Below are positions 7,458-43,352 of a stretch of 64,000 nt of DNA, piece by piece; the stretch's first letter is position 1, and each line of letters opens with the position of its first letter. The position numbers and the translations under genes were made by a program. Source of the DNA: Nitrosopumilaceae archaeon (GTDB taxonomy: Archaea; Thermoproteota; Nitrososphaeria; Nitrososphaerales; Nitrosopumilaceae). Below the pieces are notes generated by a model, which was not told where the DNA came from, ran no database searches, and saw nothing but the letters and a program-made list of their open reading frames with translations. The DNA is taken from NCBI GenBank assembly GCA_035631875.1, contig DASQHX010000013.1, positions 62,001-126,000 of the forward strand, read 5' to 3'.

Positions 7458-8600
7458 CTAATTTTGTGCAACTTCACTTCGAAGTTTTTTTGTAACAGCT
7501 GTCTCGATACTGTCAAAAAGATCTAGCATCTTCTTTTTGTTTGCTTCAAGAAATTCATAACCCTTATCGCTTAATCTTATTTTGTATAATCGTATCTCTC
7601 TGTGTTCCTCAAAAAAATGTTCAATCATCTGAGGACCTTTCTTTGCAGGATCAATGAACACTTCGAGATTTGCAATTAATTCTTTTACATCGCCTTTTTC
7701 TATTGATATTTTTACAGCTTGTATTGCTTCGCTCATCTCTTTGAGTTGTTGAATTAGTATGGGGCTCTTTTTCTTTGTATTGAGTAGTCCTTTCTTTTCC
7801 ACTCCTATTTTTTCTGCCAACTCGGGTACAATTTCATACTCATCTATTTTTTGGAATCCCATGTTTTTTTCACTTTTTACAATCAATCCTTTTTCCATTA
7901 ATTTTCTTGCAGCATCTTCTACCTCTGATTTTCCCATCATTGTAGTCCAGACAATTTGGCCTACTTTGTGATAACCTTGTCTTATAGATTCTAAAACAAC
8001 AACCTCCACTATTCGTCTAAATCCTTCATCTGCGTTGACATTCTCAAAGTCTTTATCCCTGACAGCCTTCTTTGCATTTTTTACATCGATTTCAACAGAA
8101 CGCTTGAGTGCATCAAGTGATTCAGGTATGTGATTTAAAAGAGATTGATAACATCCCTTGTTATACCATGCCATCCCATCTGTGGGATCTGAGTCAATTG
8201 CCTTTTCAACACATTCCAAAGCCTTTTCATAGTTTTTTTGTTTGTAAAAAATCAATCCCTTTAGGTTCCAAGCATCTGCATTTGTGACGTCAATCTGATG
8301 TACCTTGTTGTATGCTTCCATTGCTCTGGAATAATCATCCATATGAAAACGTGCATATCCTAATTTTAGTAGGGAATCTACATGCCCTGGATCAATTCTA
8401 AGTGCATCTTCAAAAGCAAGTACAGCATCCTCCATTCTTTCATCAGCCATAAGGGAGACTCCTTTTTTGAAGAGCTTGTTTCTAGAATAATCCGGATCAG
8501 TTAACTTGGATTCTTTAGAGTTCTCACTAGGTTCAATATTATATTCTTCCGTAGAATCTGTCTTTGGTTCCTTCGGCTTGTCTTTGAATAACTTCCTCAA
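7458..8600 (-). CDS. TPR-repeat protein with C-terminal winged-helix-like region
   Basis: A 380-residue cytoplasmic protein of unknown role. After a charged, low-complexity start, residues about 45-185 form four or five tetratricopeptide repeats (for example the DALRIDPGHVDSLLKLGYA and NADAWNLKGLIFYKQKNYE units). The middle (about 200-275) reads like a winged-helix segment (VGQIVWTTMMGKSEVEDAARKL), and the end is helical. It converges on the rhodanese gene with a 4-nt gap and is divergent from the collagen-like gene. TPRs usually mediate protein-protein contact, so an adaptor or regulatory role is an inference. No signal peptide or membrane segment. Confidence 0.85.
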   Translation of the reverse strand: MRKLFKDKPKEPKTDSTEEYNIEPSENSKESKLTDPDYSRNKLFKKGVSLMADERMEDAVLAFEDALRIDPGHVDSLLKLGYARFHMDDYSRAMEAYNKVHQIDVTNADAWNLKGLIFYKQKNYEKALECVEKAIDSDPTDGMAWYNKGCYQSLLNHIPESLDALKRSVEIDVKNAKKAVRDKDFENVNADEGFRRIVEVVVLESIRQGYHKVGQIVWTTMMGKSEVEDAARKLMEKGLIVKSEKNMGFQKIDEYEIVPELAEKIGVEKKGLLNTKKKSPILIQQLKEMSEAIQAVKISIEKGDVKELIANLEVFIDPAKKGPQMIEHFFEEHREIRLYKIRLSDKGYEFLEANKKKMLDLFDSIETAVTKKLRSEVAQN

Positions 8601-8688
8601 GGATAATGTAAATAGGCGTTTTTGCCAGATAAATACTATTCCGGGGTATCTTGCTGTTGATTTTTCTTGATTTCATTCGTAAACGGTC

Positions 8689-8696: not shown

Positions 8697-8737
8697 GCAT
8701 GGAAAATACAAAAATACTCAATGATTACACCTAGGAT

Positions 8738-10189
8738 ATGTCAGACGCAGGAAGAACGCTAGAGATCACAGGGATCTCTCCATTTAGACTTTCATCTGGT
8801 GTCTTTGAAGTTCAAATTGCAATTTGTGACAGTCCACCACAAGCTGATGATATTGCAAAAAAAAGTTTTTCTTCACTGTGGAAAGACAGCTTTCATCTTA
8901 GAGTAAAAGATAGAAAATTTGACCAAGTTTTAGGAAGTGAAAGAAATCCATTACCCGAATCTGTTTTTCAACGAGGTTCTGTATGGATTGTAGTTAGTGA
9001 TCAATTCTCTTCAATTCATACTGTTTTTGAAACTGAAATTTCATCTGGCTTTACAAAAAAAGATCCTGAAACTATAGAACATGAAAAACCAGAAACTAGA
9101 GAACATGTAAAACCTATAACAAGTGAACCAGCTTCACGCCCACAAGTAAGAATAGAATCTGAGCGAGTAGGGGAACGTGGTTTTCGAGGACCTACTGGTT
9201 TGCCAGGTCCACAAGGTGACAAAGGTCCACCAGGTCCGCCTGGCACTAAAGGTGATGATGGTCCTATGGGTCAAACAGGTGACAAAGGTCCACCAGGTCC
9301 GCCTGGAGACAAAGGCGAACAAGGCCCAAGAGGTCTTCCAGGAGACAAAGGTGACAAGGGTGACAAAGGCGAACAAGGACCACGTGGAGATAAAGGATTA
9401 ACTGGTGACAAAGGTCCATCTGGCGACAAAGGTCTTAGAGGTGAGACTGGTCCAACTGGCGATAAAGGTGATAAAGGCGATAAAGGTGATAAAGGCGATA
9501 AAGGTCTTACCGGAGATATTGGGCCAATTGGAGAAAAAGGACCAACTGGTAATCAGGGTCCAATAGGAGATAAAGGAATTATTGGTCCACCTGGAGAACA
9601 TGGTCCTAAAGGTCCGCCAGGTCCACTTGGTGACAAGGGACCTATTGGTCCGCAAGGTCCACAAGGCGACAAGGGTATAACAGGTCCACAAGGTACACTA
9701 GGTGACAAGGGTCCGCAAGGTCCGCAAGGTCCATCTGGAGAAAAAGGACTGACAGGAGTTCCTGGTCAACAAGGTGATAGAGGGCCACGCGGTTTGCCAG
9801 GTCCACCAGGCGAACAAGGTTCTAGAGGTCTTCAAGGTGCTCCAGGTGACAAGGGTCCAAAAGGTCCACAAGGTCCGCAAGGCGATAAAGGTGCACAAGG
9901 AGCACAAGGTCCTCAAGGTGAAAAAGGCCCGCAAGGGATTCAAGGATTACAAGGTGATCAAGGTCCTAGAGGACCTGAGGGTATACCAGGCGAACAAGGT
10001 CCAAGGGGTCCACAAGGTGCTCCAGGCGAACAAGGTCCAAGGGGTCCACCAGGTCCACCAGGTGATAAGGGTCCAACAGGATTTTCAGAACAAGAAAGAG
10101 CAATGCTAACAAACTTGCTTGAAATTCTTACGTCAAAGAACATGATCACAACAGAACAGCAGATAAAATTACTAAGCTACTTGTATTAG
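8738..10189 (+). CDS. Collagen-like protein with 101 Gly-X-Y triplets
   Basis: A 483-residue protein with three parts. Residues 1-144 form a non-repetitive N-terminal region without signal peptide or membrane segment, ending in a charged linker with [17 protein letters not shown]. Residues 145-448 are 101 consecutive Gly-X-Y triplets without interruption, rich in GDK (21 copies), GPQ, GPP and GEQ. The last 35 residues are a predicted helix ([18 protein letters not shown]) suited to trimer registration. The repeat should form a collagen triple helix; KGD/KGE pairs, which stabilise bacterial collagens without hydroxyproline, are common in it. Function is unknown. The repeats also create long overlapping spurious frames on both strands. 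Confidence 0.92.
9170..10081 (+). repeat. Collagen triplet repeat tract
   Basis: Coding tandem repeat of nine-base units (GGN-NNN-NNN), 101 perfect Gly-X-Y triplets plus a final Gly. Glycine codons are mostly GGT and GGA. A stretch near 9464-9500 repeats the GATAAAGGC/T unit five times in a row, the sort of array that can slip during replication and change repeat number. Confidence 0.9.
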
Positions 10190-10382: not shown

Positions 10383-10850
10383 ATGCCTCAAAGACGCAAA
10401 GCAGATGATGAGTTAACAGCCAGTGGGAAATATTCTCGTGAGTATAACAAAAGATTTCCTGAAAAATATGAACTGCAAAAAAAGAATATGAAAGACAGAT
10501 ACAATAAAAATAGATTAAAAATTCAATTAGAAAAAAGAGAGAGAACCAAGAAAAAAAGACTTGAATATATTGAACTATTGGGGGGAATGTGTGCGGGTTG
10601 CGGAGAGAGGTTTAACAAACATGCCAGAATTTCAAATCTTCAATTTGATCACAAACAATATTTTACAGGTAAAACTATGCCTAAAAGCGTTCTCTATCAG
10701 ATGGATGATTTAAGGAAAAATGGAGTGGACTTGAATCCATACTTCATATTACTTTGCATAGATTGTCATAGGATTATGACTGCAGTAAGAAAGCATAGGG
10801 ACAAGACCATGAAAATGTTTGATTACATTTCCAAAAATAATATGTTTTAA
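10383..10850 (+). CDS. Lysine-rich HNH-type zinc-site protein
   Basis: A 155-residue protein with a highly basic first half (KKRLEY, KRERTKKKR) followed by a treble-clef pattern: CAGC, then FDHK, then CIDCHR. The order CxxC ... DH ... CxxCH is that of HNH-family nucleases, in which the DH histidine is catalytic. It is probably a DNA-binding or DNA-cleaving protein, but no partner (methylase, intein, phage gene) lies beside it, so the biological role is open. It follows the collagen-like gene on the same strand after a gap that holds that gene's broken or readthrough tail. Confidence 0.75.
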   Translation: MPQRRKADDELTASGKYSREYNKRFPEKYELQKKNMKDRYNKNRLKIQLEKRERTKKKRLEYIELLGGMCAGCGERFNKHARISNLQFDHKQYFTGKTMPKSVLYQMDDLRKNGVDLNPYFILLCIDCHRIMTAVRKHRDKTMKMFDYISKNNMF

Positions 10851-11052: not shown

Positions 11053-11337
11053 ATGAGTCAACCAAAAGAAAAGATTGATTTCAAACTCTTAGACCATGAG
11101 AGAACAGGAACTGAATATGTCTCATTTAAACTAGAAGATGGAACTATTGTCAAAGTCAAAGTGGATTTAGACAGGGTAGGAATTGCAACAAATTACAAAA
11201 ATCCAGATGGTACACCGCACTATGCAATTAACACATCGGTAAAAATCACTGTGATTCCAAACGAAAGAAAATTTTCAATGGAGCCTGATTCAATAAAAGG
11301 AAAATCATCTGCCCCGCCTGGTCAGATGTTTAGTTGA
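11053..11337 (+). CDS. Small conserved protein, unknown function
   Basis: A 94-residue soluble protein with no domain I recognise. The sequence alternates hydrophobic and polar residues (YVSFKLEDGTIVKVKVDLDR and ALNTS-like strands), suggesting a small beta-barrel or beta-sandwich, and ends in a flexible SSAPPGQ tail. It has no signal peptide or cysteines. It converges on the basic repeat-protein gene across a perfect hairpin that can terminate both. Confidence 0.7.
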   Translation: MSQPKEKIDFKLLDHERTGTEYVSFKLEDGTIVKVKVDLDRVGIATNYKNPDGTPHYAINTSVKITVIPNERKFSMEPDSIKGKSSAPPGQMFS

Positions 11338-30867: not shown

Positions 30868-31593
30868 TTATAGATTTTTTTCAAGAAACAGGTTTATTCT
30901 TTTTTGTAGATCAGCATTAATTTCAGATACTGGTCTGTTTCCATTTATTGGTATAAGCCCGTATCTTTTTTGCATCATGTGAAATTCCTTGGAAATCATT
31001 CTTTGATATATTAAAAATGATTCAAACATGTCATCTGAAAGTCCTAGATCTGCACCTGATTCATAATGGTCAAGCGAGGAATTCTTTTGAAATACTCGAT
31101 GTATTAGTATATTGGGATCTACATCCAAATAAAAAACAAGGTCTGGTTTTATAGCAAAACCATACAGATTATGGGACCATTTTCGATTTAATCCTCTTAC
31201 TACGTTTCTAGCTATGAGTGTGTAGATGTATCTGTCTGCAAGTACAATGTAGCCAGCTTGTAAAGCCGGTATTATTTTATATTCAAATTGGTCAGCAAAA
31301 TCTGCAGCATAAAACAGTGCTAGTGTTTTCCTTCCTAGGTTGTAATCTCTCTTTGCCTCTAATATTCCTCTACTTACTAATTCTGAGCGCTTCAAGCCGG
31401 TATTCAAAACTGCATGACCATCTGCCTCCAATTTTGCTGTGATCAGCTCAATTTCTGTACTTCTTCCAGAAGCATCAGGTCCTTCAATAACGATTAATCT
31501 GCCTTTGATCTCAACATCTTCCAAGTTTTTTATGCCATGACCGTAAAATTCTACGGTTCTTTTTTCAAATTGTTTTTTTGTATTTTGTTTCAT
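30868..31593 (-). CDS. Thymidylate-kinase-like protein with altered P-loop
   Basis: A 241-residue P-loop protein closely similar to its upstream neighbour (shared features include LALFYAADFADQFE, the ADRYIYT motif and the DLxLSDDMFESF segment). The Walker A motif reads GPDASGRST (38-46), with Arg44 in place of the Lys needed to bind phosphate. It also has a 30-residue N-terminal extension. Kinase activity is therefore doubtful; it may be regulatory or form a heterodimer with the canonical copy. Its start lies 29 nt inside that gene, so the two are translationally coupled. Confidence 0.88.
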   Translation of the reverse strand: MKQNTKKQFEKRTVEFYGHGIKNLEDVEIKGRLIVIEGPDASGRSTEIELITAKLEADGHAVLNTGLKRSELVSRGILEAKRDYNLGRKTLALFYAADFADQFEYKIIPALQAGYIVLADRYIYTLIARNVVRGLNRKWSHNLYGFAIKPDLVFYLDVDPNILIHRVFQKNSSLDHYESGADLGLSDDMFESFLIYQRMISKEFHMMQKRYGLIPINGNRPVSEINADLQKRINLFLEKNL

Positions 31594-32269
31594 TTTTAAT
31601 CAAAGCTCTGGCAGGTGTTTTGGGAAGTGTTTTTGGTAAAATAGCAGAAATTTTCTCTCTAACTAATTTCTGCTGTTCTTCAATATTTAATGTACCATCT
31701 ATAACAGTAAATCCTTCTGAATCTGCCATTGAATCATATTGTTCAATTATTCTTCCTTGAAAAATTCTATAACTTTCATACGGATCATTGCTTAAATTCA
31801 AATCCATTCCAGCTTCATAATATTTTAGTTTAGGTCTACCAACAAGAATTCTGTCAACTGCAATGTCAACTGGTACTCTGAAATAAAATGCGATATGTGG
31901 TTTGATTGCAAAATCGTAAACACTTCTTACCCATTTTGGATTACAACCTCTTACAACATCTCTCACAAATGCAGTATAGATGTATCTATCTGCTAGAACA
32001 AAATAACCAGCACGTAACAACGGAAAAATGTTTCTTTCATACCTGTCTGCAAAATCAGTAGCATGTAGCAGACTAAAGGTAGTTGGTGTAAGCTGACCTT
32101 TTTTCTTTCCTTTAGACGTGATTTCTTTTACCATCTCAGAAGAATTCCATTCAGTTTTAAAAACACTAATTCCTTTGTAAGCCAGCCATTTTTCTAGAAG
32201 ATGGACTTGAGTTGATTTACCTGAACCATCTATACCTTCAACTACAATTAATCTACCGTTATTTTCCAT
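31565..32269 (-). CDS. tmk: Thymidylate kinase-like NMP kinase
   Basis: Phosphorylates dTMP to dTDP, or a related nucleotide. The 234-residue protein has a normal Walker A GIDGSGKST (12-20), the ADRYIYTAFVRD motif containing the family DR(Y/F) signature, and a LID-like region near residue 140. It is the first of a tandem pair; the second copy has a defective P-loop. The 277-bp gap upstream is shared with the divergent SixA gene and holds one copy of the Pho-type box, on the plus strand. Confidence 0.9.
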   Translation of the reverse strand: MENNGRLIVVEGIDGSGKSTQVHLLEKWLAYKGISVFKTEWNSSEMVKEITSKGKKKGQLTPTTFSLLHATDFADRYERNIFPLLRAGYFVLADRYIYTAFVRDVVRGCNPKWVRSVYDFAIKPHIAFYFRVPVDIAVDRILVGRPKLKYYEAGMDLNLSNDPYESYRIFQGRIIEQYDSMADSEGFTVIDGTLNIEEQQKLVREKISAILPKTLPKTPARALIKNETKYKKTI

Positions 32270-40667: not shown

Positions 40668-40711
40668 CTATATAGATTACTATAATTCTGGATTACTATG
40701 TAATCTATGGA
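40668..40711 (+). promoter_or_regulatory. Phosphate-region promoter box, copy C (first pstS)
   Basis: CTATATAGAT at 40668-40677, 22 nt, then GTAATCTATGGA at 40700-40711. The second block overlaps a perfect palindrome GATTAC-TAT-GTAATC (40691-40705). If the first block is the TATA box, the palindrome straddles the expected transcription start, a good site for a repressor. Confidence 0.55.
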
Positions 40712-40727
40712 GTTTAAATTAAATAAC

Positions 40728-41927
40728 ATGAGGTATCTCATAAAATTAGTGATAAAAAAAATTATTTTAGGTGTGGTTTTAATGCTTATCTTAGTCATAC
40801 CGGCAACATCCCTTAACATAATAGCACAATCTGCATTGAGTCTAAATGCAGCAGGTGCAACATTCCCGTTTCCTCTAATTGATAAGTGGAGAGTTGAATA
40901 TAACAAGATTCATCCAGACGTCACATTAAATTATCAATCAATTGGTAGTGGTGCAGGAATTAAACTACATACAACCAAAGCAGTTGATTTTGCTGCATCT
41001 GATGCACCATTACAACCATCTGAATCTTCTGCAGCACCTGGAACATTACATATTCCAGAAACGATTGGCGCAGTCACTATCACATATGACATTCCAGGAA
41101 TTGCTAAAGGTCTAAAATTAACTGGTCCTGTTATTGCGAATATTTTTAGCGGTAACATAACTCACTGGAATGACAAAATGATATCAACATTAAACCCAGA
41201 TCTAACCTTACCAAATCAACAAATTGTTGTAGCCCATCGTTCTGATGGGTCTGGTACAACTTTTGTATTTACAAGCTATCTTTCTAAAGTTAGTCCTGAT
41301 TGGCAAACCAAAATTGGACAAGGAAAGAGTGTTCCATGGCCATTAGGAGTTGGAGGCTCAGGAAATGCAGGAGTTGCAGGAATAGTTAAGAGTACTCCGT
41401 ATAGCATTGGGTATGTAGAACTAGCTTATGTGATGCAAAATAACATGACATATGCATTTGTTCAAAATGCAGATGGAACGGCATTTGTAGAACCAACTCT
41501 TGACACTATAGCAGCTGATGCAGCATCTGCGGCAACAAATCTACCTTCTGCAGATGGTGATTGGAGCAAAATATCTATAGTTAACGAACCAGGAAATAAC
41601 TCGTATCCTATTTCATCATTTACTTATCTTTTGGTATACAAGGATTTATCACAAATAAAGGGAATGACCCAGGACAAAGCAAAAGCAATAGTTGACTTTC
41701 TCAATTGGGCAATTCATGACGGACAACAATTTTCATCATCATTGCTTTATGTACCATTGCCAGACGCAGTGGTAAAATTAGACGAACAAGGAATTTCACA
41801 AATACAATACAATGGTGGACCTGTTCCAGAATTTGGTACAATAACAGCTCTAGTACTTGCAATTGCAATTATATCTATAATCGCTGTTTCTGCAAAGACT
41901 GGACTAAGATTCGTACCAAAATACTAG
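40728..41927 (+). CDS. pstS: Phosphate-binding protein PstS with PEFG-type C-terminal anchor
   Basis: Captures phosphate outside the cell for the Pst permease. The mature part carries the PstS signatures GAGATFPFPLIDKWRVEY-like start (AAGATFPFP), the SDAPLQPSE loop, HRSDGSGTTFVFTSYL and SGNAGVAG. The N-terminus is a signal peptide ending near SLNIIAQS. The last 35 residues, PEFGTITALVLAIAIISI then positive residues, form a thaumarchaeal PEFG-CTERM sorting tail. I chose ATG 40728 because it matches the start of the paralogue and because ATG 40707 falls inside the shared promoter block; 40707 would add seven residues. Confidence 0.93.
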   Translation: MRYLIKLVIKKIILGVVLMLILVIPATSLNIIAQSALSLNAAGATFPFPLIDKWRVEYNKIHPDVTLNYQSIGSGAGIKLHTTKAVDFAASDAPLQPSESSAAPGTLHIPETIGAVTITYDIPGIAKGLKLTGPVIANIFSGNITHWNDKMISTLNPDLTLPNQQIVVAHRSDGSGTTFVFTSYLSKVSPDWQTKIGQGKSVPWPLGVGGSGNAGVAGIVKSTPYSIGYVELAYVMQNNMTYAFVQNADGTAFVEPTLDTIAADAASAATNLPSADGDWSKISIVNEPGNNSYPISSFTYLLVYKDLSQIKGMTQDKAKAIVDFLNWAIHDGQQFSSSLLYVPLPDAVVKLDEQGISQIQYNGGPVPEFGTITALVLAIAIISIIAVSAKTGLRFVPKY

Positions 41928-42121
41928 AACAAACAACTTTTTCATTTTTTAGTTACAATTTTCAAATAATATTCAATAATAAAAATTCTATATGCAAATG
42001 ATTTTTTCTAAAATATGTTTGATCATCTTGTTACTTTTTGATTTTATCGATCATTTTCATATTTTTTCATTAATCAAAATTTTTATAGAGAATTTTTTCT
42101 ATCTAAATGTAATTTTGATTT

Positions 42122-42165
42122 CTATATAGATGTGATGTGTTATAGCTGTTTACGTAATCTATGGA
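42122..42165 (+). promoter_or_regulatory. Phosphate-region promoter box, copy D (second pstS)
   Basis: CTATATAGAT at 42122-42131, 22 nt, then GTAATCTATGGA at 42154-42165, identical in block sequence and spacing to copy C. The ATG inside the block opens only six codons here, so the block is not a conserved start codon. Confidence 0.55.
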
Positions 42166-42203
42166 AGTCATATGTAAATAACTAACATCGTCTCATAAGC
42201 TCA

Positions 42204-43352
42204 ATGACGAAAAAAATCATTTTAGGTGTAGCATTAATGCTTATCCTAATAGTACCGACAACATCACTTAGTGCACATGCAGACACCGTACCACCTGCAC
42301 CACTTGATAGTGACAAGTACACGATAAAAGCAGCAGGTGCAACTTTTCCATTTCCGCTAATTGATAAGTGGAGAGTTGACTACAATGCTCAATATCCTGG
42401 AATTAATCTAAACTATCAAGCAGTTGGAAGTGGAGCTGGCGTAAATCTCTACACTAAAAAGGTGGTTGATTTTGGCGCATCTGATGCACCATTGCAACCA
42501 AGTGAAGCAGTAAAAGCACCAAACACACTACACATTCCTGAGACAATGGGTGCAATTGTAATGACCTATAATCTTCCAGAATTCCAAAAAACTGGATTAA
42601 AGCTAACAGGTCCGGTCATAGCTGATATATTTTTGGGAAAGATATCAACATGGAACAACCCTGCAATTGCAAAGCTAAACCCAGGTGTTACACTTTCTGC
42701 AAACAAAATTGTTCTTGTACATCGTTCTGATGGTTCAGGTACAACATTTGCTTTTACGGACTATCTTTCTAAAGTAAGTCCGGCGTTCAAAGGAAGAATT
42801 GGACAAGGCAAATCAGTACCATGGATTACAGGAGTAGGTGGTTCAGGAAATGCAGGAGTAGCAGCAATTGTAAAGAAAGTGCCTTGGTCTATGGGTTATG
42901 TAGAACTGGCATATGCAAAAACAAACAAGTTTGCTGGATCCAACATACCTATGACATATGCATACATACAAAACCATGACAAGACTGCATTTTTGGATGC
43001 TACTGTGGATACTACATTAGCTGCAGGCCAAGGAGCTGTGACATCAATGCCACAATCTGATGGTGACTGGAGCCATGTATCTATAAACAATGCGCCAGGA
43101 GCTAACGCATATCCAATTGCAACCTACACGTATCTATTGGTCAATGAAAACATTGACAAGATAAAGGGAATGGATGCACAAAAAGCAAGTGATCTAGTTC
43201 ACATGTTGTACTGGTTTGTAACAGACGGACAACAAAGATCAACAAAGCTATTGTATGTGCCATTGCCTAGCAGTGTAGTACAAATTGATGAAAGCGGTCT
43301 TCATAAAATAATGTTCAATGGCAAGCCAGTGTGGCCTTCCAGTGGATATTAG
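42204..43352 (+). CDS. pstS: Phosphate-binding protein PstS, second copy without C-terminal anchor
   Basis: A 382-residue paralogue of the preceding PstS, with signal peptide (MTKKIILGVALMLILIVP, cleavage near AHADT) and the same phosphate-site motifs AAGATFPFPL, SDAPLQPSE and HRSDGSGTTFAF. It ends at KPVWPSSGY with no PEFG tail or membrane segment, so it should be released or held by other means. The two genes also share promoter blocks, pointing to a duplication including upstream DNA. Confidence 0.93.
   Translation: MTKKIILGVALMLILIVPTTSLSAHADTVPPAPLDSDKYTIKAAGATFPFPLIDKWRVDYNAQYPGINLNYQAVGSGAGVNLYTKKVVDFGASDAPLQPSEAVKAPNTLHIPETMGAIVMTYNLPEFQKTGLKLTGPVIADIFLGKISTWNNPAIAKLNPGVTLSANKIVLVHRSDGSGTTFAFTDYLSKVSPAFKGRIGQGKSVPWITGVGGSGNAGVAAIVKKVPWSMGYVELAYAKTNKFAGSNIPMTYAYIQNHDKTAFLDATVDTTLAAGQGAVTSMPQSDGDWSHVSINNAPGANAYPIATYTYLLVNENIDKIKGMDAQKASDLVHMLYWFVTDGQQRSTKLLYVPLPSSVVQIDESGLHKIMFNGKPVWPSSGY

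Follow-up and report, generated by a model that had tools for sequence, protein, structure and literature searches.

The window, a 64,000-nucleotide stretch of DNA from a Nitrosopumilaceae archaeon, carries at positions 8738-10189 of the + strand a gene for a genuine, conserved and lineage-specific collagen-like protein with new domains at both ends. The gene starts with ATG, encodes 483 amino acids, has orthologues in relatives and contains 102 uninterrupted Gly-X-Y triplets (residues 145-450; 9170-10087, + strand). An earlier note on this DNA had described 101 unbroken triplets spanning residues 145-448; the run is indeed unbroken, the count being short by one triplet, and our recount of GDK triplets within the repeat gives the same 21.

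The coding frame and its Gly-X-Y repeat

The repeat region of the product matches the Pfam Collagen model PF01391 with 174 bits against a cut-off of 27.2 (4e-52). What the protein has in common with that class is the Gly-X-Y run, as the model covers the repeat only and the flanking domains lie outside it. The start codon is well placed because there is an in-frame TAG directly 5' of the ATG, and because an element further upstream, described below, keeps a near-constant spacing from it.

Comparison with four relatives provides insight into how the repeat is maintained. In every comparison the glycine codons are unchanged at positions one and two (144-204 positions), whereas 25-51% of their third positions differ and the X and Y codons also change. 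This combination of unchanged glycine positions and varying neighbours excludes a chance origin of the run; the repeat is under selection and is more than a spacer. The approximately 46 C-terminal triplets align without insertions or deletions in most of 45 sequences, including the segments GLTGVPGPQG[ED]KG and GPQGPQGIQGPQGER, and a conserved C-terminal cap (10037-10069, + strand) reads GPPGPPG[DE] in 40 of the 45 homologues, ahead of the C-terminal hairpin.

The charged residues of the repeat are also ordered. Triplets with an acidic X and a basic Y residue recur every four triplets (12 residues), with a lag-4 count of 661 against 289 expected when the family is pooled (z 30.7) and a further recurrence at lag 8 (z 24.7). 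These pooled scores are inflated by the relatedness of the sequences, although the test on the product of 8738-10189 alone, which is not so affected, gives p=0.001. There is no peak at lag 4 in 21 bacterial collagen runs. Past duplications of 36 bp could account for part of the 12-residue period. The earlier note had pointed instead to frequent KGD/KGE pairs as a stabilising salt-bridge pattern, but these pairs number 9 where triplet order predicts 9.3, and over the family they are depleted (276 against 367 expected); because they are not enriched we have dropped the salt-bridge argument.

End domains and occurrence in the Nitrosopumilaceae

The N-terminal domain (residues 1-104; 8738-9049, + strand) is family-specific and predicted to be a beta-sandwich, which AlphaFold2 places at approximately residues 8-100 with pLDDT >90. 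It is followed by a charged and variable linker (residues 105-144; 9050-9169, + strand) that is predicted to be disordered (pLDDT <60). Beyond the repeat, the C-terminal 33 amino acids (10088-10186, + strand) are predicted to form a helical hairpin (pLDDT 92), a candidate trimerisation or docking domain and the most conserved part of the protein, with a mean column identity of 74% as against 43% for the N-terminal alignment. Neither the sandwich nor the hairpin has a significant match in Pfam, NCBIfam, PHROGs, PDB sequences or BFVD, there is likewise no significant Pfam match for residues 1-144 or for the final 33 residues taken whole, and Foldseek returns nothing for either predicted fold at E <0.001. 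The SHOCT domain was considered for the hairpin and does not appear among the Pfam matches when 38 members are searched with E-values of up to 10; the likeness is presumably only a general one, in helical layout.

All of the 41 homologues that we parsed have the N-domain, the charged linker and a single perfect Gly-X-Y run of 51-163 triplets, and apart from a few that are cut off by contig ends all finish in the C-terminal 33 amino acids. The proposal that the N-terminal region and the helical C-terminus are separate domains is thus borne out, both being distinct and conserved across the homologues. Run lengths cluster family-wide near 101-104, 117-125, 142 and 163 triplets, a spacing of roughly 20 triplets (60 residues, or five 12-residue periods), which hints that the run has grown in units of fixed size or is constrained in length.

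The earlier note had also suggested searching archaeal genomes separately with the two ends. Of 82 Nitrosopumilaceae genomes sampled, 78 contain exactly one match each to an N-domain profile and the remaining four are drafts of 30-220 contigs; 168 other genomes of the order contain none. With a C-terminal domain profile, 41 of 44 Nitrosopumilaceae genomes give matches, whereas 256 genomes from the rest of the phylum give none. Relatives in named records come from Nitrosopumilus, Nitrosarchaeum, Nitrosotalea and Cenarchaeum, and the gene is retained in two reduced genomes of 0.8 Mb. Since per-match E-values of PF01391 are too weak for a census threshold, the rarity of long repeats was assessed by a glycine-spacing pattern of 31 glycines in exact register, which hits 58 of 63 Nitrosopumilaceae genomes and 6 of the 335 genomes taken from elsewhere in the phylum. 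The view that long collagen repeats are uncommon in archaea therefore holds for Thermoproteota outside the family but not within the Nitrosopumilaceae, where the protein is near universal. Draft assemblies may collapse repeats. A search of CC-licensed PMC papers found no description of this Nitrosopumilaceae collagen family.

Five other long collagens of the phylum were inspected, and a hydrophobic, signal-like N-terminus is present in four (L153, L154, L155 and L175) but not in the fifth (L156). The latter, from another Thermoproteota family (f20; L156:1105-2394), carries a zinc-ribbon-like CxxC...CxxC segment at its N-terminus, lacks a signal peptide and is possibly a second signal-less type of archaeal collagen. 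L175 (L175:2202-9755; G191:C1, - strand) is a giant second collagen of another Nitrosopumilaceae genome, a g17 genome. Its open frame of 2518 aa holds 559 unbroken triplets, together with DDAAQK repeats that resemble a coiled coil and FG-GAP-like repeats at the C-terminus.

Genomic neighbourhood and upstream elements

A divergently transcribed gene for a TPR protein (7458-8600, - strand) is the immediate neighbour of the collagen gene in all 20 loci compared, with sulfite reductase-like and rhodanese genes nearby in 19 of 20 and a GTPase gene beyond them in 17 of 20. The TPR gene is present in other families of the order and is therefore older than the collagen gene. Downstream there is a small conserved gene, c10 (94 aa; 11053-11337, + strand). 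At locus L147 of family f3 the TPR gene and c10 are directly adjacent with no collagen gene between them, which is the arrangement expected before a gain in the Nitrosopumilaceae ancestor, or after a loss. Between the collagen gene and c10 the window has an HNH/endonuclease VII-like ORF (10383-10850; sub-threshold in Pfam). It is missing at the same place in four other loci (L027-L030) and a fifth (L026) has a different minus-strand ORF there, and so this spot takes insertions. Elsewhere in the window we note two tandem thymidylate-kinase-like genes that are alike by eye (30868-32269, minus strand; 241 and 234 aa) and a tandem pair of PstS-like phosphate-binding proteins (40707-43352) on the downstream side of a pst transport cluster.

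The region between the divergent genes contains two boxes that are strongly conserved. One, AAATACAAAAATACT (also given as AAATACARAAATACT; 8704-8718, + strand), lies -34 to -20 from the collagen start codon, at a near-constant distance in nearly all orthologues, and occurs only once in exact form in the genome; it is a candidate core promoter for what would be a near-leaderless transcript. This collagen-side box, AAATAC-AR-AAATACT, is apparently conserved more strictly than we would expect of an ordinary TATA box. The other box (8626-8642, - strand; AGATAAATACTATTCC as read on the + strand) is a candidate promoter of the TPR gene.

Cellular location and a proposed rod

The claim of the earlier note that the protein has neither a signal peptide nor a membrane anchor extends to all 41 homologues. 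The best 19-residue hydropathy within their first 45 amino acids is at most 1.14, no long hydrophobic or transmembrane segment is found (at most 1.65 anywhere), and the LPxTG motif is absent from every one. In this respect the protein differs from four further collagen proteins encoded in its genome (L002-L005), which are short and secreted; they share Gly-X-Y repeats with it but have only 8-15 triplets, unrelated domains, and hydrophobic export signals with an N-terminal hydropathy of 2.0-2.4. The simplest reading of these sequences is that the protein stays in the cytoplasm, and an intracellular life is probable.

To account for this location together with the architecture, we propose a model, which we would put at even chances when taken as a whole, in which the single-copy, family-wide collagen is a C-terminally nucleated homotrimeric rod of the cytoplasm that acts as a scaffold or tether. 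Collagen rods generally require a registration domain, and as the hairpin adjoins the GPPGPP cap it is the natural candidate, with folding from the C- to the N-terminus. Three chains would associate through the C-terminal helical hairpin, the invariant GPPGPP segment beside it would nucleate the triple helix, and zippering would run towards the N-terminus to yield a stiff rod. The glycine constraint and the GPPGPP cap are indirect pointers to such a helix. The rise of a triple helix is 0.286 nm per residue. The 102 triplets would then give a rod of about 87 nm, and the parsed runs as a set 44-140 nm, with three beta-sandwich heads at the end opposite the hairpin. The rod would remain in the cytoplasm as a structural scaffold or tether, its heads and the conserved C-terminal part of its length would bind partners, and the 12-residue charge period would permit side-by-side packing or repeated docking. 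It is the combination of hairpin and cap, rod, and a charge period fitting packing or docking sites that leads us to favour an internal scaffold or tether. The more specific notion is that a cytoplasmic triple-helical rod of defined length and lateral charge periodicity belongs to the core structure of Nitrosopumilaceae cells, the collagen fold being put to internal use as a cytoskeleton or tether; we hold it tentatively and with somewhat less than even expectation. As regards partners, the TPR neighbour comes to mind, although being the older gene it may be a bystander.

A difficulty for a cytoplasmic rod is that the genome's other collagen proteins, all four of them, carry export signals, as do four of the five others inspected in the phylum, and known bacterial collagens carry them too. 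The protein might accordingly be an extracellular or surface collagen, either an adhesin or an S-layer-associated fibre, leaving the cell by a non-classical export route not yet recognised in these archaea; we consider this doubtful, but it is the strongest of the alternatives. In 'Ca. N. chungbukensis' MY2, a member of the Nitrosopumilaceae, an 'LPXTG-anchored collagen-like adhesin' for which a surface role was inferred is reported to be present in the proteome and raised at low salinity (PMC13037477, the only paper found in our literature search that ties collagen to a Nitrosopumilaceae gene product), and the best, or one of the best, sub-cutoff NCBIfam matches of the present family has the same name. 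However, the MY2 protein may be another collagen and the report is not assignable to the gene studied here, because a g17 genome has a separate, giant collagen with an apparent signal peptide. The best NCBIfam scores of the family are to SclA/SclB of Streptococcus and Lcl of Legionella, with which it has in common a long Gly-X-Y run that has no interruptions and many charged triplets, yet they fall below the cut-offs (NF038330, 161 bits against 400; NF038329, 169 against 325; NF046116 for Lcl, 172 against 500), as do those of ten further homologues, so that all homologues scanned score beneath them (161-281 bits against 325-500). Unlike those proteins, the Nitrosopumilaceae protein lacks a signal peptide and LPxTG, has other N- and C-terminal domains and is an archaeal family-wide core gene. 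A weak resemblance to bacterial fibres is also seen in the N-domain, as five bacterial proteins (L057, L066, L069, L073 and L082) have a fibre beta-domain with a similar LW...F.V.xG.FsxxLG..xPlp motif ahead of their collagen run, although these apparently have signal peptides; the profile match (31% probability over 45 columns) and motif are suggestive, and we do not claim homology. The absence of signal peptide, transmembrane segment and LPxTG from every homologue weighs against a surface location.

Two further explanations would also keep the protein in the cytoplasm. The lack of enrichment of interchain KGD/KGE pairs is consistent with the Gly-X-Y run being a flexible, unfolded spacer or entropic bristle, but such a disordered linker leaves unexplained the exceptionless glycine at every third position, the GPPGPP cap, the in-register conservation and the 12-residue charge period, and we regard it as improbable. 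Phage tail fibres, which are made without signal peptides, commonly contain collagen repeats, and the collagen part of the protein matches tail fibre families of PHROGs (phrog_6320, 3e-73; phrog_5073, 2e-66), so that a domesticated viral tail-fibre protein assembled in the cytoplasm comes into consideration. The likeness goes no further than the collagen run and cytoplasmic synthesis without a signal peptide, the matches being confined to the repeat, and no relative of the N-domain turns up in viral contigs, phage records or PHROGs. The gene is moreover chromosomal, syntenic and single copy, shares no head or tail domain with the phage proteins, has no phage genes nearby and sits in a metabolic synteny fixed family-wide, all of which makes this the least credible of the alternatives. 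Of 22 candidates for viral relatives in viral contigs none was confirmed, and there were none in phage records.

Little is known of the cell architecture of the Nitrosopumilaceae, which are among the most abundant archaea of the ocean. They have a near-universal, single-copy gene whose product, a long collagen-like rod, has no export signal and has two domains without a match in the libraries searched; the gene survives genome reduction to 0.8 Mb. This cautions against reading such archaeal genes as LPXTG surface adhesins, and it provides a concrete gene for testing in cultured strains. An animal-style triple helix may be at work inside Nitrosopumilaceae cells and, if so, the collagen fold would be extended to an intracellular role, one that marks the origin of a single lineage.
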